From Rhynchonema sp. JSB1_4 (lineage: Eukaryota; Nematoda; Chromadorea; Monhysterida; Xyalidae): a stretch of DNA of 64,000 bases. Made by a program: the position numbers and the translations under genes. The notes below the pieces were generated by a model. That model worked only from the letters and a program-made list of their open reading frames with translations. It had not been told where the DNA came from and made no database searches. This document shows positions 54,219-64,000 of this stretch, in pieces. Position 1 is the first letter of the stretch. Each line of letters opens with the position of its first letter. The stretch is taken from assembly GCA_030248065.1 (NCBI GenBank), contig JASAMV010002936.1, forward strand, positions 62,001 through 126,000, read 5' to 3'.

Positions 54219-54803
54219 TAGGCCTGGGCACAATACCACTTTTGACACCCAATACCAATACCAATACCGGCCCTGTACCAATACCCAATACCCAATACCA
54301 ATACCAAATTGGTGACCCAATACCAATACCCAATACCAATACCGGGTGAGACCCAATACCCAATACCAATACCAATACCAGATCAATACTACTGAAGTGC
54401 CTGGTATTGGGTTTGGTATTGGGTTGGTATTGGTATTGAGTATTGGGTATTGGGTTGGTATTGGTATTGGGTATTGGGTATTGGTCTTAGTATTGGTTTG
54501 GTATTGGGTTTTTGGTCTGGTATTGGGTTGGTATTGGGTTTGGTATTGGTTTGGTATTGGGTTTTGAGTCAGGTATTGGGTTTGGTATTGGTTTGGTATT
54601 GGGTTTTTCTGGATTAGTATTGGGTATTGGTTTTGACCCAATACCTGGGCAAACCCAATACCAATACCCATACCAGGCCAGCTTCAATACCAATACCCAA
54701 TACCCATAACCAGAATTAGATCCAATACCAATACCAAACACTGGTATTGGTATTGGTATTGGGTGGTATTGGTATTGGGTATTGGGTATTGTGCCCACCC
54801 ATA
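54219..54803. mobile_element. hAT-like MITE made of CCCAATACC minisatellite (TSD ATTCCCAC)
   Basis: Ends TAGGCCTGGGCACAATACC and GGTATTGTGCCCACCCATA, with exact ATTCCCAC at 54211-54218 and 54804-54811. Almost the whole 585 bp is CCAATA/TATTGG heptad and nonad repeats that switch strand several times. A further tract of the same repeat (53955-54190) abuts it on the left. Confidence 0.85.
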
Positions 54804-55145
54804 ATTCCCACCTCTGTTTACAAATGTACGTAATATATGTAATTTGTTACATATATTATTTTGGGAGTTACATATATTATTTTAATATATGTAACACAAC
54901 ACTAACCGGCCCTGAAATTTTGGCCTTTTTGACCATTGTTTCCTTTGACCCCAAAATCGGTCCGGGCCGCGATTTCGGACTTTCAAAGCGGGTCGAGCCA
55001 GTGTTGGAGGTGGGGGGTTGGGGGGTAGCCCCCCAGTACAGTAGGAACCCCCCGATTTTGGGCATGGTACAGTAGGTATCCCCCCGATTTTCACCTGGTA
55101 CAGTAGGTATCCCCCCCACCCACATTGGTACAGTATCCCCCCCAC

Positions 55146-55570
55146 CAGTGTAGTGGCAGGCCCATGTGTGGGAGGTAAGTATGATGCGGGGTTGGGACCG
55201 GAAGCGTGAGAGGTATGATTTTGGTCACCCAAAAAGGCGAAAAAACACCGTTTTTGTGATACAATTTTGGCCAAAAATTGAGGTAAAAATAGTACTTTTT
55301 CAAAATTTTCGCCGAAAATCGCCTAAAAACAGGTATTATGTGTGGGTTTGCGCGCGGAGCGCGCGATTTTTGGGAAAATAAGGTCGAAAAACACCGATTT
55401 TTGCCTTAAAAAGGTATAAAATTGCTTGTGAGAGGTATGATTTGGAGTTGTGAGAGGTAAGTACTCAACCCCCCCCAACCCCCCCCCTCGGGTTTTGTGG
55501 TAGGTAAGTACTGAGAGGGGGGGGGTAAACCCCCCCCCCCCCCCCCCCCCCCCCCCCAGCCACTACTATG
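55146..55570. mobile_element. hAT-like MITE with long C-run (TSD CCCCCCAC)
   Basis: Ends CAGTGTAGTGGCAGGCC and CAGCCACTACTATG, with exact CCCCCCAC at 55138-55145 and 55571-55578. It contains a GCGCGCGGAGCGCGCG hairpin near 55350 and a C-homopolymer of about 30 near 55528-55557. Confidence 0.8.
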
Positions 55571-55609
55571 CCCCCCACCCCAATCCAAGGGCAAAAAATC
55601 GAAAAAACG

Positions 55610-55671
55610 AAGATTGACTAATTTTACGGAAATCCACCCGTTTTGTGTGTGCTTAAGCATAGTCCCATACT
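55610..55671. mobile_element. TTAGGC-bearing MITE copy 3, left part (TSD AAAAAACG)
   Basis: Starts AAGATTGACTAATTTTACGG directly after AAAAAACG (55602-55609) and continues as the 17404 and 18825 copies do, up to AGTCCCATAC. There it is broken by the Penelope-like element. Its other part is at 60737-60921. Confidence 0.92.
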
Positions 55672-55890
55672 TAATGTTAAACTTTAACTCGGTCCCACCT
55701 TTTGTTGTTGATTAGCAGCCTTGGAGTCACTGTCCGGTGTCGCACGTTTCAGCGCTTGTTTATTCGACCCTGTCTTGTTGTTCTGGTTGGTTGCAATCAC
55801 ACGTCTTTGCGGCAACGGTGGAAAGTCGGACATGCTGAAACACTAAAAATATTAGAGACGGTAACACTGTTGTAATTGCACGTTTCGGGC
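55672..55890 (-). repeat. Downstream 219-bp pseudo-LTR
   Basis: Identical by eye to 60518-60736. On the minus strand it starts GCCCGAAACGTGCAATTAC and keeps the ORF1 start codon, all 45 codons of exon 1 and the GTGGGA donor, and stops 27 bp into the intron. Confidence 0.93.
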
Positions 55891-56022
55891 CTTAGGTCAG
55901 ACGTGCAATTACGGTATGAGTCAATAGGCCGGCCCTCGTCAGTAACGAAGCCTAAAGACTTTTATTCGCAAAATTCATTACCCAGATTGCAGTAATTTGA
56001 AATATCGTCCTTGTTTTGATGA

Positions 56023-58885
56023 TCAGCGATTAATATCGATTGCTAATTTTACGATTTTCGTTTTTGATTGTATGCCGTATTTTCCTGGAATCTGAGGTTT
56101 ATTTTCGAAGATTCGGAACAACAGACAAAACAACTTTTTCCTCTGAAAGCCTTTCTCTTCCATGCGTTTAATCAGCGCCCGAATGGCACTTATAAAATCA
56201 TGCCTGATGTTCACCAAGCTGTGTATTCTGTGTACCTGGGCTGAAAACACACCATAACCTACGGAACTATGCATATTACTATCGACGTGTGTGAATTTTT
56301 CAACTTTAAAGTTGAAATCTCTAGTTTTATCATATAATTTGAAAGCCACACTGTTGCTATTTGAAAACTCAAGGCTGACATCCATGAAATTTGCTTCAGT
56401 GAACGAGGTGTTAGTGCGATTTAGCGGTATATCTGCTGGATAAATTTCTTTGGCAACTTCCATAAAATTCTGATCGCCTATCGCAATAACATCATCTACG
56501 TATCTACCAACAAACTGCAGTAACTTGACCTTATTTCTATTAATATTTTTTGTCAAAAAGTCAAATTCACACATTGACAAGGTCAAATCGGTAATCAAGG
56601 GAGCACAACTAAGGCCCATTCCAACTCCTTTTGTTTGTTTGAAGATTTTATCGGCGAACTTCACGTGAGATGAACTGGTAACCATAGACAAAAGATCCAT
56701 TATGTCAAAAGCGGTTAATGTTCTATCCCTGCTAGTGAAGGTATCTGTGTACATGTAGCTTTGGCCAGCGAGTTTAAGGTATCTTTTACCAGCATTTTTG
56801 TACATTAAAGTAACCAATCGGTTCATTTGCTCAAAAATGAAGCAATGTGTTAAATTGGTAAATAAGGTGCTAAAGTCAGCAGTGACTACGATGGGTCTAA
56901 CTTTTTTCGTGCTCAAGTGGCTAATCATTTCCTGTACATTTTTTATGGACCAATAACAGTTAATCCCGGACTGCAGCTTTGTTATTCGACAGTAATTCCG
57001 AAAGTGTTGCCTAATGGCTAATAGTGCTCTGTGCAGCAGAACACTAACTGGCTTCAGACTGCTGTTTGTGGCGCCTGCAATAAACCGAAAAGCGTAAGGG
57101 TCCTTGTGTAGTTTTGGAATAGCAAACAATCTGGGTAGATTTTTATCAAGTTCGGTTAGTTCCTTGTGATATTCATCATTATATCCTGTGTGCTCCAAAA
57201 CAACCTCATTTTCTGATCTATTTTTATGGGCATAAACCTCGTTACCTGCAATTTGTAATCTATTTGAAGTCATATCTATTCGAATGCCCATTTCATTACA
57301 CATGACTTGCGCGTAGTACTTTTTGCAAATGAATACATAGTTATTGGACGCCTTATCCGCAGGTGCTATAACATATTCCCGGTGGAGATTTTTTGGTTCT
57401 CTTTTCACTTCCCTGGTGAAATTGTTAGCAGGGTTTGCACCATGGCTGATGTATTTATAGAATGTGGTTCTACGAAACAATATTGAATTGACCCAAACTC
57501 TAAGGTCATGAAATTCGGTTCGTTGGATCTCGCATTTTTTGGCGATTTGTTTGAAGAAACTAACAAAACTAAGAACTACACCTTCATGTGCCTTGAACCA
57601 ATCAAGGTTTTTTGGTACTCTGTAGTTGCGTCCTTTGGTGAATAACGTCCGAAGCTTCTGATTTTGTACTATGCTAAGATCACCTGTGATCACGTGTCCA
57701 GCTTTTGAATACAGATAGGTACTGTGTAAACAGTTGCAAGAACTTTTGAGGATTTCAACTAATTCCACCGTGTTCAAATGTTTCAAAAAGGAACCATAAT
57801 TATTTAGTGAGACGCTAATTGGGCTGTCATTAACGTACGAAATTCTAACATTTTTTAGCAGTGTTCGAGCAGCCGCCGGAGCAAGCTGGACGAACCTTTT
57901 ATCCTTGACGAGAGTTTCCACTTTTAGAAGTTCCGTGCCTTTATTCAAATATGGTATTTTCAAGACCGAAGAGGGTGTCTCTTTTGAAAGCTGTTGAAAA
58001 AAGATTCCCTTAAGGTATGCTAGAACTAGATTATTGAGCCAGGGGTGAAGCTGCAGGTGGTTGGCGAATTGTTGCAACTTAAATAGTGATTCTAATTCTT
58101 TTTTACTCGCTGACCTAAGCAGTATGTACATCTTGATCTTGCCTTTGGGGTCATCCATATCTATATTTCTCAGTTGGGTGTGCAAGGTGCTCCCTTGATT
58201 GCCTTTCTTCCCTCGCTTACCGTGACCACGTTTCCTTCTTGGAACAGGCGCACAAAAATACGGTTTGCGTTTGTTATCTTCGTTGATATCATCGCCATCG
58301 CTTATTGTACCATATCCTTGTACGCGGTCGTTTAGGCCGTAGGGAAATGCTGTAATCAAAGTTTTTGTCCAAAATGCTTCAAGTTCAAGCAGTTTCTTGT
58401 CAAAAACTTCCGCACTACTGGCTGTGACTTTTTTGAACGATTCTTATTTTAATGTCGTCAATGTTATGCACATCGGTAAAATGGTTCACCAGAAAAGTTC
58501 CATTTTTACGGTTACGTATGTTATAAATATGCTCATAAAATCGTTTTCTCAACGGTCTAATTGTTTTTCCAATGTACTGAACGTTGCATTTTCGGCAGGT
58601 TAATAAATATATGACACCATGACTGTCGCAATTGCACAAATTTTCATTTTTGGTGCGAAAATGTTTGCCTGTGACACCACTTTGTATCGTGCTGCGATTG
58701 TCATGATGTCTACAAACTAAACATTCAGTTTTTGAACATTTTGTAAACTGGCTGGCTTGGTGACTACGGTTATTGCCCCACAAGAGGCAATATTTATTAT
58801 CCTCGGTTAAATTAGCATGTATTACGTGTTTTGGGTTGTTTTCAGAATTGACAAGCGGTAGTTTATTGTCCTCATGGAGGGCTGC
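56023..58885 (-). pseudogene. Penelope-like ORF2: GIY-YIG endonuclease + reverse transcriptase, one-base frameshift
   Basis: Open from 58885 (after TGA) to TAG at 58415 encodes the endonuclease: a Cys pair region CSKTECLVCRHHD, then GVIYLLTCRKCNVQYIGKT with Cys-x2-Cys between the GIY and YIG halves, and NHFTDVH completing the CCHH motif. The RT frame (stop 56023) has linker FPYGLNDRV, the fingers-palm stretch RLFAIPKLHKDP, motif A VVTADFSTLFTNL, motif B GVGMGLSCAPLITDL and catalytic YVDD at residues 620-623 of the 778 counted from the methionine at 58359. The two frames meet at a run of six A (58429-58434). Five A would fuse them through EVFDKKLLELEAFW. No ATG opens the endonuclease frame; upstream TAA and TGA codons interrupt a protein-like stretch (GWKCFTLHGRLSTLRFEKTK near 58925-58985). 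So this copy is probably inactive, unless frameshifting and splicing rescue it. Confidence 0.85.
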
Positions 58886-59337
58886 TCACACTTACTCCAG
58901 AGGAAGGGGACGACTGATTTTGGTTTTCTCAAACCTTAGGGTGGATAATCTGCCGTGTAGAGTGAAACACTTCCACCCGTCACCTTACTTCCAGGGGAGC
59001 CCAGTTGTACCCCGTGTCACTGATCTCCCTGTTGAAGTCAGGCCGCTAGCGTACCAGCTTAACGAGTGCTTTATGTGGAATTATAAATAAGTAACTGATT
59101 GATTAGTCGTGTAAATCTCATTTTCGTTGTCATTTTAGTGAACTAAGGCGTCAATAAATAAGCAAACAAAAATGAACACAACTTTTTTTATAACTCCAAC
59201 AGAAAAAACTGAACAACAATTGTTAGCGTTTCAAAACTTTCAACAAAAATCAACTCAACATTTTCAAGGCGCTGCGGTTCTCACAATTTAAGAAATATGG
59301 AATAGTATAACTATTCAATGATGCCTAAAATACACAA

Positions 59338-60679
59338 TCAAATTTTATCGATGTCAATCGGTTCCTTGTCTTTCGATCCGTGGTCATTTCCACCAGAAAC
59401 ACCACTTGTACCGGCCATATCACCTTCGGCCATTGCGCCACCGATCGATTTGGGCACTTTCTGCCGTAATTTGCTGATGTGCGTCGGTTGACCGTTGTTT
59501 GGGTCGAGATGTAGCATATTTGAGCCAACCGCTTTGCAATTTGGGAACCCATTCTCTCGGAAGTATTTGCGATAGGCAATCTGCACTTTCTGGTCGCGTC
59601 GTGCCCCGTCTGTCAGCTGTCGACCGATCGAAATTTTGGTACCTGCCGGCTGTCCTGGCCACACGTAGTGACCAGCCGGATGTTTGGCCAAGTTCTTGGT
59701 GTGCTCCAAGACCAGTCTCTGTGAACCTTCGTCATTCAAATGCACCACCATGGCCCGTCCTTTTTCCTCTTTGGAAAAGCCAGTGATTTTCAACGAATTA
59801 TAATCATCAGCGGACATTTTCAGACCATTCAGACACAGAAATTTGAAGGCAACTATGGGCGTTTCTGGGGTGCGAGTGGGCATACCGTAGATTCGTAGCC
59901 AGTTCTTCATCAACAGGCCACGGGTACTTTGTCCGGTACGGGCCGTTTGAACCAGGCCATTGTTCAATCTGCCAATATTACCCGCGAGCACTTTGATTTG
60001 TTCCGAGATCTCTTTTTTCTCATCAACTTTAGCGAGTTGGAAAGGGTTGGCTGAGTTTAGATTGATTTGTGTTGCAGCACGTTGTGGGATGCGTGGTTTC
60101 TAAAGCCGAAAATATGGAGGTGAGAAAATGTAGCAAAATATGTCAAAACTGATTTCAAAACATTTCCGAAAATGTATGAAAAGTAGCAATATACAACTAT
60201 GTAGCAGTACATAATTTTTGCTGCGCGATGCAGCTCATGTAAATTGCTGCGCGATGCAGCTCATGTAAGGTGCTGCGCAATGCAGCTCATGTGGGTTGCT
60301 GCGCGATGCAGCTCATGTAAATAAGTGTTATTATTTAACTGCAGGTGTAGTGGTTGTCATCATAAATTTGTTACAACAACCTTAGTCACCAAGCCAGTAC
60401 GTTCCTGATCCTAAGCAAAATTATGCACTTTCAAAATTGAGTAATAGTAAAGCCACGTCCTAAACCCCAGGGGCGGGAGCGCCCGCCACCACGAAAATTT
60501 AGGATTGGTGGTATTCCTAATGTTAAACTTTAACTCGGTCCCACCTTTTGTTGTTGATTAGCAGCCTTGGAGTCACTGTCCGGTGTCGCACGTTTCAGCG
60601 CTTGTTTATTCGACCCTGTCTTGTTGTTCTGGTTGGTTGCAATCACACGTCTTTGCGGCAACGGTGGAAAGTCGGACAT
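59338..60679 (-). CDS. ORF1 of the Penelope-like element, spliced, LINE-ORF1-like
   Basis: Exon 1 60545-60679 (ATG, 45 codons, MSDFPPLPQRRVIA, basic and Gln-rich, ends QQQK at donor GTGGGA). Exon 2 59338-60099 (acceptor CTTTAG, 253 codons, TGA). Both splice at phase 0, giving 298 residues. There is no ATG in the first part of exon 2, so splicing is needed. Exon 2 has a short helix (VDEKKEISEQIKVLAGNIGRL), NWLRIYGMP, a beta-alpha-beta-like stretch (GRAMVVHLNDEGSQRLVLEH), and ISIGRQLTDGARRDQKVQ...YFRENG, then an acidic tail EPIDIDKI. This layout (helix, RRM-like fold, basic C-terminal domain) recalls L1-type ORF1 RNA chaperones. That is a resemblance, not a proven homology. Expected role: binding the element RNA. 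Confidence 0.68.
60219..60322 (-). repeat. Four 26-bp tandem hairpin units in the ORF1 intron
   Basis: Units TGCTGCGCGATGCAGCTCAT plus 6 bp, starting at 60219, 60245, 60271 and 60297, with a few substitutions. Each contains GCTGC-GCGAT-GCAGC, able to form a 5-bp stem in RNA. Located in the middle of the 445-bp intron. Confidence 0.88.
60458..60504 (-). other. Nested stem-loop in ORF1 intron
   Basis: Outer stem TCCTAAA (60458-60464) with TTTAGGA (60498-60504). Inner GC-rich stem GGCGGG-AGCG-CCCGCC (60472-60487). It sits just before the inner edge of the upstream pseudo-LTR. No hammerhead core was seen in it. Confidence 0.6.
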
Positions 60680-60736
60680 GCTGAAACACTAAAAATATTA
60701 GAGACGGTAACACTGTTGTAATTGCACGTTTCGGGC
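60518..60736 (-). repeat. Upstream 219-bp pseudo-LTR with probable promoter
   Basis: Identical by eye to 55672-55890. Its right edge (60736) is the probable 5' end of the unit, since the two copies diverge exactly there. The 57 bp between this end and the ORF1 ATG would be the leader. Confidence 0.93.
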
Positions 60737-60921
60737 TTTAGGCTTTAAGCTTTAGGCTTCTAGTTCAGGCTTAGGCTTAGGCTTAGGCTTGCGGTTAGAC
60801 TTAGGCTTAGGCTTAGGCACCAGCCTGAATCAGATAAAACCCACAGCCACGGCGAAAAACGGCTGTATCTTTCGTGGACGCGTGGTCGGTCGGGTGGATT
60901 TCCGTATAATTAGTCGCTCGT
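60737..60921. mobile_element. TTAGGC-bearing MITE copy 3, right part (TSD AAAAAACG)
   Basis: Continues the copy started at 55610. It holds a GCTTAGGCTTAGGCTTAGGC array, CACCAGCCTGAATCAGATAA, and the end CCGTATAATTAGTCGCTCGT, followed by AAAAAACG at 60922-60929. The matching octamer on both outer sides proves one original element of about 247 bp. Confidence 0.92.
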
Positions 60922-60929
60922 AAAAAACG

Positions 60930-61256
60930 CAAAAAATTTCTCTTTCTCATAATTTTTTCAGCAGCGTGGGTCGGCTCCGGCCGGCCGACTTCAAACCAAA
61001 GTGGTGGCTGGTGATCAATAACGGGATAGGGGAATAAATGTTTATTCAGATTGTTGATACAATGTAAGCAGGTGTAAGTAAGACAGTCCATACATATCAT
61101 AAATACACGCAAGTGGCGACACTTGTATCTGTAGATTGAATTGAATGCGTGGTCTTTGTGACAAATAAGATGTTTGACAAATAGGAAGGATGGGTTGTGA
61201 CAAATATCATGATGTTGATGACTATAAGACAGACGCCGGAGTATACCGCCACACAT
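60930..61256 (-). other. Cys/His-rich ORF of unknown function
   Basis: Open frame starting MCGGILRRLSYSHQHHDICH and containing KCRHLRVFMICMDCLTYTC then CINNLNKH: a C-x8-C-x2-C-x5-C-x2-C series with flanking His that could bind zinc. It runs on into the MITE part at 60921 and below, so its natural 3' end is disrupted or it is not a gene. I do not recognise it. Confidence 0.3.
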
Positions 61257-61386
61257 GCGGCGTTTGCAAAAACCAAATATGTGTAATTGTCAATTTGCCT
61301 ACGCCACTAATATCAGGTAGAGAGTGAGTGACTGGCAGCGTTGGGAAGAATACACGTCAATGCAAAATATTTTAGATGATTACTTC

Positions 61387-61807
61387 TTAGAAGATGATCG
61401 AGTACATGAAGTTCTTCTTGTGCTCCTCCGACACTTCTTCCGTTTCTTCCAGATCACGGAACACTTCGTCCATTGCATTCTTTCGTTGCGCTTGTCTTTC
61501 GGACATCTGCATGCGACGCTTCCTGCAAAATAACACGCACATACAACGTCCCTGTGCCTTTAGATATGCATTTGCAGTGTGGTTTATATGTTGTAATTTT
61601 TGGTCACGTCATGTGAGAAAACGAACCAAGCAGTTTGACTTACGGGTGCAGGTATTGCGGATTGTCGGTTGCACTGTGGGACATCAACCAACGACGCGCG
61701 TACCAACGATGATTGCATCTCTCGACCGGCGGCCCATTGGTCTTGATCCGCAGCTGGTCGTCAAGATGCCATGGCGTCAGTCGATTCCTGTAGTCATAAT
61801 AATGAAG
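61387..61807 (-). CDS. Last two exons of an unrecognised small protein
   Basis: Exon 61644-61807 (acceptor CCGCAG, reading NRLTPWHLDDQLRIKTNGPP and WYARRWLMSHSATDNPQYLH) ends at GTAAGT. Exon 61387-61522 (acceptor TTTGCAG) continues in phase as PKRRMQMSERQAQRKNAMDE and ends FMYSIIF with TAA at 61387-61389. The exon join is supported by phase. Upstream exons were not found before the opposite-strand gene at 61862, so either they lie farther right, interleaved with that gene, or are very short. Confidence 0.55.
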
Positions 61808-61861
61808 CTGCGGTGTTCATAGAATTCAGCTCGGACGACTGATACAGAGCTTAACCTACAG

Positions 61862-64000
61862 AAATTCCCATCACACATGTGACCGATACGTTCAACGCGA
61901 AGATGTACAAACTGAAGCGGATCATCGACGTTCGCTGGATGGCATCTGACATGTCAGCACTGAAAACCGTTCGGGCAATGACCTTTCCGTTGATGGTTGA
62001 AGCGTTTCGGGCAGCACTGTAAGATTGGAACCAACGCGATGGTGGCATCCGCATCGACGACATCGGAAAGGCAACGGCCCAGGGTCTACTGGTTGGTTAG
62101 GTTGAATGTGGACATTCTCACACATCGTTGGCGTCTAATGCTCATCCTTCTCACCGTGCTTAAAGTGACTCTACAATTGAATGTTGACCGCGTTTGTTTG
62201 CAGCCATACTTTTAGAAAATGAAGGCAAGGTATCAGAAACCCAGATTTAGGGAATGGATTTTCAACTCGTTGCTTCGTGATGTTTCACGGAGCCTACATA
62301 TTTTCACAGGAGGGGAAAAATGAAAAAAGTTTGAGGCGGGCCTGTGCAAGACACAAGGTAATCCAATCTAAGATATTTTCAGCGTTTTATACACCGACGT
62401 TTCTCTGTTAAACGAGGTATAAAGCATTGTACGATACACCATGTGTGATAAATGATAAACGAAACACTCCAAACAATCAAGCCTTTTTGAAGCACCCTTT
62501 CACTCTGGCATAATTTTAGGCATCTGTGGTGAATGAAATAAGTTGTCAACAGCAAATAAAAATCGTCTAATTATCAAGTCCGGTGTTTGTGCTTCCCAGT
62601 TTTCAAAACCCTACACAGCTCACACAATGTTTACCACAACATGCGCAAGGCAGCCATTCCACAGCGCGCACACACAACAAAGCTTGCCAGCTGAAACATT
62701 GCTGTGTTGTCGCTGTGCCGACTGTGTGTTGTCGTTGTGTGTGCGCTGTGGAATGGCTGCCTTGCGCATGTTGTGGTAAACATTGTGCGAGCTGTGTAGG
62801 GTTTTGAAAACTGGGAAGCACAAACAAGGGACTTGATAATTAGAGGATTTTTACCTGTAATTGACAACTTAATATTTCATTCACCACAGCCTAAAATTAT
62901 GCCAGAGTAAAGGCGTGCTTCAAAAAGGCTTGAATTTTTGGAGTGTTTCGTTTATCATTTATCACACATGGCGTCTCGTACAATGCTTTATATCTCATTC
63001 AACAGAGAAACGTCTGAAAACGCTGAAAATATCTTAGATTGTTTTACCTTGTGTCTTGCACAGGCCCGCCTCAAACTTTTTTCATTTTTTCTCCTCCTGT
63101 GAAAATAAGTGGGCTCAGTGAAACATCACAAAGCAACGAGTTGAAAATCCATTTCCTAAATCTGGGTTTCTGATACCTTGTCTTCATTTTCTGAAAAAAA
63201 TTGCTGCAAACAAACGCGGTCAACATTCAATTGTAGAGGCACTTTAAAGCTATATGTACCCACCTCAACTGCGGGATTTGGCCAATTATCGCCACTTCCA
63301 GTCCGGACTCGCCTTTCTGCGCGACATACTGACTGAACTGAATCTGATGTCAATGACGGCCCAGAATAAGCAGGCTATGTTGACTGGAGTCGGCCCAATG
63401 GTCCGGCGCTTCAAGCAAACAATGCAGTAAGCATTATGTCACGGTTATGTAGCAAGTGGGGCAAGTTGTGACGCATACGTACATATATACCAACTCATGT
63501 CCTGTTTTATTACAGGACGTGGACGACCAACGTTGATGCCAACCCACCTAAGTACCCGCCCATTCTGAACTCGTTCTTGCGTTCATTTGCCATGTGCTCA
63601 GAGCAATACGACGAGCAACAATTAACCCCATGCCAAACGTTGCAGAGATATGAGACAGCGACACAGCGCATGGTCAGTTTCGTTCTGCTCCACTTTTTTG
63701 TTCATGATTTGGCCATCGACAGCAGACTGGCCATGGATTTGCGGTGTACGTACATGCATACTGTACATACATATAGTCCAACCACGAACTCATGAGACGA
63801 CAGTTTTTTTTAAATTGGTTTGTGCGGATCCAACAATGTTCCGGTTCCACGTATTTCGGAAATGAAAGAAAGAGAAAAGCATGTATTTTTTAAAAATACG
63901 CTCTCCCCTCGGTGCGTAAATTCCCTTTAGACTCCCAAAACATTTGTGTGTTGAACGACGTTGCTGTTTGCGTAAGCACGCAACAAATTGAGGTCAGCCA
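61862..64000 (+). CDS. Unrecognised helical protein, 3' end outside window
   Basis: Four exons join with consistent phase: 61862-62018 (VTDTFNAKMYKLKRIIDVRW), 63250-63426 (YPPQLRDLANYRHFQSGLAF), 63516-63745 (NPPKYPPILNSFLRSFAMCS and FFVHDLAIDSRLAMDLR), and 63931 to the edge (QNICVLNDVAVCVSTQQIEV). Almost entirely helical, no membrane segments, no signal peptide. It looks like an internal piece of a large helical scaffold protein, but I could not match it. The first intron contains a 1.08-kb palindrome placed directly at the acceptor. No start codon is assigned. Confidence 0.55.
62164..63243. mobile_element. 1.08 kb near-perfect palindromic MITE (TSD TTAA)
   Basis: Starts AGTGACTCTACAATTGAATG, ends with the inverse, flanked by TTAA at 62160-62163 and 63244-63247. 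Arms of about 520 bp are complementary with scattered mismatches, and the centre is near 62700-62730 (GTGTTGTCGCTGTGCCGAC). TTAA duplications fit piggyBac-type insertion, but the ends do not start with the usual CCC, so the class is open. Confidence 0.87.

Follow-up and report, generated by a model that had tools for sequence, protein, structure and literature searches.

A nematode Penelope-like retroelement that very probably carries a LINE-1-type ORF1 as a stable part

On the minus strand of a 64,000-nucleotide stretch of the nematode Rhynchonema sp. JSB1_4 (contig JASAMV010002936.1, positions 62,001 to 126,000; hereafter the window), a retroelement holds an endonuclease (EN) ahead of a Penelope-type reverse transcriptase (RT), together with a separate open reading frame (ORF1) that resembles the ORF1 protein (ORF1p) of long interspersed nuclear elements (LINEs). 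LINE ORF1p and Penelope RT have so far been treated as parts of different retroelement classes, and the question raised by this locus is whether ORF1 belongs to the element or lies there by chance. Our conclusion, held with high confidence, is that this is an N-terminal-endonuclease Penelope-like element (PLE) with a LINE-1-type ORF1 as a stable part. As read from the sequence, the element opens with a pseudo-long terminal repeat (pseudo-LTR) that contains exon 1; the intron, exon 2, a structured RNA, EN-RT and a second pseudo-LTR follow.

An earlier sequence-only reading of the window had proposed that identical 219-bp direct repeats, set between two halves of one miniature inverted-repeat transposable element (MITE), bound a single insertion. 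Both points hold in the 204-Mb host genome, which we queried by protein, family and DNA searches. The repeats are 225 bp long with a single mismatch near one end, leaving the 219 identical bases. The right flank is itself a repeat with 39 long matches outside the window, 36 of which begin at the same base (query 6, window position 60745). Twelve short matches represent the opposite MITE arm, which is found 30 bp from the long arm in two other copies (C3928 and C652; C and L numbers are our own labels) and which in the window occupies 55616-55640, 30 bp ahead of the insertion. One insertion of ~5,074 bp (~55671-60744) therefore broke a MITE. Solo pseudo-LTRs of 227-230 bp (L011, L013, L015) and partial ones (L017-L019) also exist; they hold exon 1, but within 1.5 kb neither ORF1 nor RT is matched. 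TTAGGC-like repeats occupy window positions 60738-60818.

Within the insertion, the separate spliced ORF1 described by the sequence-only reading, with exon 1 and its start codon in the pseudo-LTR, is recovered as a product of 298 residues from two exons (Table 1). The intron is predicted from the sequence and from the matching layout of related families, which we call A (the window element) to J. In A, C and D the terminal repeat contains exon 1 with its ATG, and in B exon 1 lies at the corresponding place. The donor assigned to exon 1 is GT in each of A, B, C, D and H, and in A-F an AG stands directly before the open frame of exon 2; all these first introns are predicted. Exon 1 of family C is RGG-rich. 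Predicted structure gives a coiled coil, then a LINE-1-like RNA recognition motif (RRM), then a C-terminal domain (CTD), and the top PDB matches of the model are human LINE-1 ORF1p (2yko, 2w7a), with 11-23% identity in structural alignments. On this model, the ORF1 product would fold, and perhaps work, like LINE-1 ORF1p. Zinc-finger PDB matches of the ORF1 profile (E 4e-8 and 4e-6) span 26-29 residues, and we discounted them as short, probably compositional matches. Pfam found no esterase domain in ORF1. A search of 5.8 billion proteins for ORF1 homologues returned 2,761 candidates, none at E 0.01, and viral contigs yielded no relatives of ORF1 or EN-RT. The predicted intron contains four 26-bp tandem units (TTGCTGCGCGATGCAGCTCATGTAAA) at 60218-60322; translations of the family B intron suggest that similar units may occur there.

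The second gene was correctly read as EN followed by RT, with GIY-YIG and RVT_1 matches in that order. In family B, EN and RT are joined in one frame of 954 residues (C2049; GIY-YIG at 92-177 and RVT_1 at 637-805 by Pfam), in the same order as in the window. Cysteines C384 and C386, forming a CxC between EN and RT, are invariant in 16 of 16 aligned sequences; a CxC at this place is a defining feature of N-terminal EN+ PLEs. The RT motifs PKLHK, DFSTLFT and RY[VI]DD, which we take to be of Penelope type, are present in five families, and pseudo-LTRs with tandem or partial tandem copies occur as they do in N-terminal EN+ PLEs. We know of no canonical hammerhead ribozyme in such elements, and the Rfam hammerhead was absent up to E 5 from window positions 54500-62000 and from 10 related loci. 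The ten nearest database proteins among the candidates listed are all unnamed.

What ties the two genes together is their recurrence. A genome search with exon 2 found nine places, and in 9/9 an EN match followed on the same strand, 449-633 bp downstream. An iterated ORF1 profile added C1665, C1493, C22, C2766 and C967, while C3240 begins within ORF1 at a contig end; ORF1 of the A-F type was found at 15 loci in six families. That ORF1 belongs to the element, as the sequence-only reading held, is borne out by this recurrence in the same order and with similar spacing. ORF1 apart from such an EN was seen in none of the nine exon 2 matches, host LINEs not having been surveyed. In three copies, moreover, ORF1 is flanked by long direct repeats: C1498 has repeats of 873 bp (100% identity), C194 of at least 803 bp (99.75%) and the tandem C689 of at least 1,251 bp (99.4%). 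These repeats take in the last part of the RT frame, as those of partial tandems should. EN-RT is one open frame of 1,007 residues in C1498; the RT frame is broken in C194, and EN is in another frame in C689.

The 5' side was read at 27 loci: 15 of families A-F, three of H, four of I/J and five without an ORF1 match (C4872, C2149, C1180, C1745, C3551). Another four (C145, C3625, C4490, C3442) start within EN-RT or at contig ends and are uninformative for the 5' side. Copies without an ORF1 match thus exist, a kind of copy that the sequence-only reading had named, if cleanly joined, as evidence against a two-gene element. Three of them look truncated: in C4872 and C2149 the break falls between ORF1 and EN, and C1180 begins in EN at residue 48, beside an RT tail. 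The other two form family G (C1745, C3551), whose copies have common sequence only from ~400 nt before EN-RT. In C967 (L033), the stretch between ORF1 and EN differs from that of C1665 by an insert of ~540 bp that has long self-complementary arms.

A comparable layout appears in the more distant family H (C4630, C5161, C4756; RT identity 31%), whose ORF1 was missed by the A-F profile. By reading, a frame that looks like a coiled coil and RRM, followed by a CTD-looking frame, was recognised upstream of EN-RT in C5161; C4630 has the CTD part, and the fold model of the H ORF1 contains just the beginning of the CTD. The first H frame has seven genome matches, one of them in C3316. In the six that were read, EN-RT lies downstream in C5161 and C4756, an EN-RT piece lies in the opposite orientation in C2335, and the frame follows the RT tail of an upstream copy in C1993 and C145 (two matches). 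A candidate exon 1 lies ~175 bp past the RT tail; it has an ATG and is followed by a GTGAGT donor. C1993 fuses both H frames exactly where C5161 has a 112-nt GT-AG insert, and keeps the predicted first intron. Because the loss of the insert is exact, the intron is real and spliced RNA was copied.

Both genes, as far as the sequences tell, are under purifying selection: between A and B, the ratio of nonsynonymous to synonymous rates (dN/dS) comes to 0.079 in ORF1 and 0.088 in EN-RT, dS being close to saturation. The ORF1 tree of six rows sets (A,B,C) apart from (D,E,F), a split also found in the RT tree. There, 100/100 support unites this genome's families in one clade apart from seven unnamed environmental proteins; the tree is midpoint-rooted, has one long branch among those seven and includes no named Penelope reference. 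The two-gene layout is kept in distant relatives within the same genome, and therefore ORF1p, thought typical of LINEs, appears to be common to another retroelement class.

Could ORF1 instead be a nested or neighbouring LINE fragment that came to lie beside a Penelope element by chance? Its LINE-1-like predicted fold would suit such an origin, as would the family I copy C82, where broken RRM- and CTD-looking frames are present that the near-identical C2613 lacks. Chance is largely contradicted by the order, strand and similar spacing kept in every exon 2 match, and also by the terminal repeats that enclose ORF1 in C1498, C194 and C689, by the main split common to the ORF1 and RT trees and by the return of the layout in family H; we regard this explanation as very improbable. 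The C82 frames (L054, 3661-4541, minus strand), which resemble ORF1p and lie upstream of the EN-RT, were not counted as ORF1, given their absence from C2613; a profile comparison of the pieces with A-F or H gave nothing.

Several observations nevertheless weigh against an ORF1 that is a stable part of these elements. EN and RT are in different frames in the window copy itself. The genome holds 57 RT matches, of which part was read, weighted to near relatives. In the two copies of family G, the upstream 3.4-3.5 kb yielded no ORF1, though G falls within the A-F RT clade. Families I and J (C82, C2613, C4198, C3033) gave no match to the ORF1 profile, a weak negative because the same profile missed the ORF1 of H, and the copies compared within I and within J are alike only from roughly the point where EN-RT begins. 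The profile link between the A-F and H ORF1 is moderate (hhalign probability 65%), and the alignment behind the H fold model included A-F rows. Finally, a Transposase_22 (PF02994) search of the genome found no match, nor did Pfam scans of ORF1 find a relevant one; we therefore state the kinship with LINE-1 as one of fold, perhaps of function, and claim no sequence-family membership. The L1-ORF1-like layout put forward by the sequence-only reading is supported by the predicted coiled coil, RRM and CTD and by the best PDB matches.

Between ORF1 and EN-RT, ahead of the EN core, lies a block of ~170-210 nt that is better conserved than coding sequence in four pairs (block/coding identity: A/B 0.864/0.711, E/F 0.898/0.765, F/C2766 0.986/0.803, G/G2 0.968/0.811); identity in the interval from ORF1 to the block is 0.521, 0.561, 0.846 and 0.559 in the same pairs. 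The end of the block is the opening of the EN-RT frame in A, B, E, F and G; this frame opens within or before the block's core in C and D, and in H the core lies ~350 nt ahead of it. In an alignment of five sequences, nine of 18 base pairs change on both sides, and 95.4% of cells are paired compared with at most 63.0% when the sequences are slid. Ten sequences fitted to the model give 12/17 pairs changing on both sides and 93.3% of cells paired (at most 60.0% slid), though in this larger test the further pair types do not stand out from shuffles (128/500). Among 17 sources, the five-sequence RNA model found the held-out C (E 4e-9), H (6e-4) and B (0.003); it found no copy in the I/J loci L054, L055, L059 and L061 or in L060. 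The window core was missed with default filters; in an element-only search with filters off it ranked first (E 0.007, with the runner-up at 0.51). No Rfam family, known ribozymes included, was detected in the element or related loci at gathering score. Weak Rfam matches near the element, none above gathering score, fall nearly all in the adjoining minisatellite or C-rich stretch; the minisatellite (54247-54630), with TGGTATTGGGTT-like units and inverted arms, gives weak microRNA matches.

Two readings of the block, internal initiation of EN-RT and RNA recognition by EN-RT, carry similar weight. In human LINE-1, translation of ORF2 can proceed in the absence of its AUG. Here, the first in-frame methionine lies 17-53 residues into EN-RT in nine copies of families B-H, and the window EN frame has none at all. 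Upstream of that methionine, nonsynonymous and synonymous differences per site (pN/pS) are 0.17/0.37 in A/B, 0.05/0.29 in E/F and 0.13/0.22 in G/G2, over 28-36 codons with few changes, and protein-level constraint seems to extend upstream of the first methionine, a weak but consistent signal in these sequences. Among the papers listed in our literature search, we recognised no proposal of an internal ribosome entry site (IRES) for such elements. The Cripavirus/dicistrovirus intergenic IRES (RF00458) was tried as a candidate: no match exceeded the cut-off in the genome (32 candidates, the best at 24.4 bits on another contig), and none was found in related loci of the element.

That the block is mainly a recognition or priming structure for EN-RT, or a site at which the RNA 5' end is processed, is in our view somewhat less likely than not. 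For PAc, a PLE, PMC11167929 gives a minimum template that takes in the first 172 nt of its ORF, with reverse transcription starting inside the RNA. The 5' end of the family-B-like copy C2149 (L062/L052 junction) falls within one base of the block start as drawn; the coincidence proves little, because other copies without an ORF1 match break elsewhere, C4872 at ~350 nt and C1745 and C3551 parting at ~400 nt before EN-RT. It also counts against this reading that no known ribozyme matched. EN-RT might also be expressed through a splice that joins it to exon 1 or to ORF1, or from a downstream AUG, so that no internal non-AUG start is needed. The family H ORF1 was indeed spliced, and the first methionine of the B-H frames precedes the cysteine finger and GIY-YIG core in 9/9 copies examined; the lack of any methionine in the window EN frame, the excess of pS over pN upstream of the methionine and candidate acceptors that, by eye, differ in phase between A/B and F all tell against this route, which we consider possible while leaning against it. 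The boldest proposal, that a whole lineage of Penelope elements is bicistronic in LINE fashion, with ORF1p gained before the A-H split and a new intergenic RNA driving an AUG-less internal start of EN-RT, strikes us as rather unlikely.

For the element as we interpret it, a PLE with a LINE-1-type ORF1, the following cycle may be envisaged. ORF1p would be translated from spliced RNA, with exon 1 supplied by each copy's upstream pseudo-LTR or, in a tandem, by the upstream copy; it would trimerise via the coiled coil and coat the element RNA as its partner in a ribonucleoprotein (RNP). EN-RT could be made separately from the same transcript, from a non-AUG start at the structured block, which may double as a handle recognised by EN-RT. 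EN would then nick the target, and RT would copy mainly unspliced RNA; the resulting partial tandems would appear as pseudo-LTRs.

Table 1 Features of the window element (window coordinates) and families carrying ORF1 of the A-F type.
Feature	Position or copies	Strand	Basis or remark
Whole element, one insertion, about 5.07 kb	55671..60744	-	MITE halves and pseudo-LTR copies as bounds
5' pseudo-LTR with ORF1 exon 1 and ATG	60518..60742	-	13 full or partial genome matches, 2 in this element
ORF1 exon 1, 45 residues, predicted	60545..60679	-	exon 1 counterparts in families B, C, D, H
ORF1 intron, predicted, GT-AG, phase 0	60100..60544	-	26-bp tandem repeats at 60218-60322
ORF1 exon 2, 253 residues: coiled coil, RRM-like, CTD-like	59338..60099	-	LINE-1 ORF1p-like fold predicted
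RNA block between ORF1 and EN-RT	58886..59058	-	A/B nucleotide identity 86% vs 71% in EN-RT
RNA block core: stem enclosing hairpin, linker, second hairpin	58908..58984	-	covariation in relatives
N-terminal GIY-YIG endonuclease frame, no in-frame Met	58415..58885	-	Pfam E 2.2e-5
Penelope-type reverse transcriptase frame, 806 codons	56023..58443	-	RVT_1 E 1.5e-5, below curated cut-off
3' pseudo-LTR	55672..55896	-	225 bp, 1 mismatch vs 5' copy
Interrupted MITE, left part	55616..55670	.	DNA matches
Interrupted MITE, right part	60745..60921	.	genome DNA matches
Family A	window		
Family B	C2049, C5713, C2393		RT identity to window 69%
Family C	C1498, C689		RT identity to window 45%
Family D	C194, C1591, C3240		RT identity to window 40-43% (D-F)
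Family E	C4157		RT identity to window 40-43% (D-F)
Family F	C1665, C1493, C967, C22, C2766		RT identity to window 40-43% (D-F)

A LINE-1-type ORF1p as long-term partner of a Penelope RT would make the RNP-forming half of a retroelement a portable module, and offers a second natural setting for asking what ORF1p does in retrotransposition. The C1993 copy, with one intron lost and another predicted one kept, is a genomic record of which RNAs are reverse-transcribed, and the intergenic RNA makes translation of a retroelement's second frame directly testable. The Penelope class is related to telomerase; if a lineage of it is bicistronic in this way, a LINE-like mode of expression and RNP assembly would have arisen in, or been taken over by, the class nearest telomerase.

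The closest known systems are the N-terminal-endonuclease, or permuted, PLEs Naiad and Chlamys, reportedly described by Craig et al. in 2021. These are said to share with the window element a GIY-YIG before RT in one frame, the invariant CxC, pseudo-LTRs and tandems, and no hammerhead found; relative to them, the window element appears to add an intron-bearing LINE-1-type ORF1 and a conserved RNA block. With LINE-1 ORF1p (2yko, 2w7a) the window ORF1 has in common the predicted fold, the domain order and the place upstream of an RT gene, but its partner is a GIY-YIG/Penelope-type RT, it has introns with exon 1 in a terminal repeat, and identity is low, as noted above. No PLE with an RRM-type ORF1 was recognised in the open literature on PLEs, a coverage outside which the defining paper on N-terminal-endonuclease PLEs falls. 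Canonical PLEs are single-ORF elements according to PMC11167929. The sequence-only reading had suggested that the architecture would be new. This may hold for a LINE-1-type ORF1 on a PLE, but not for a two-ORF PLE as such: PMC3905857 describes PLEs with a separate, esterase-type ORF1. Theirs is an SGNH esterase, and no RepBase esterase ORF1 protein includes an RRM according to that paper, whereas the window ORF1 is predicted to have a coiled coil, RRM and CTD. The Terminons and Athena elements of bdelloid rotifers, as presented in PMC6431247 and PMC5408684, likewise combine a Penelope-type RT with accessory ORFs, coiled-coil ones included; unlike the window element, they are endonuclease-deficient and telomeric, reach up to 40 kb and carry ORFs of other types.

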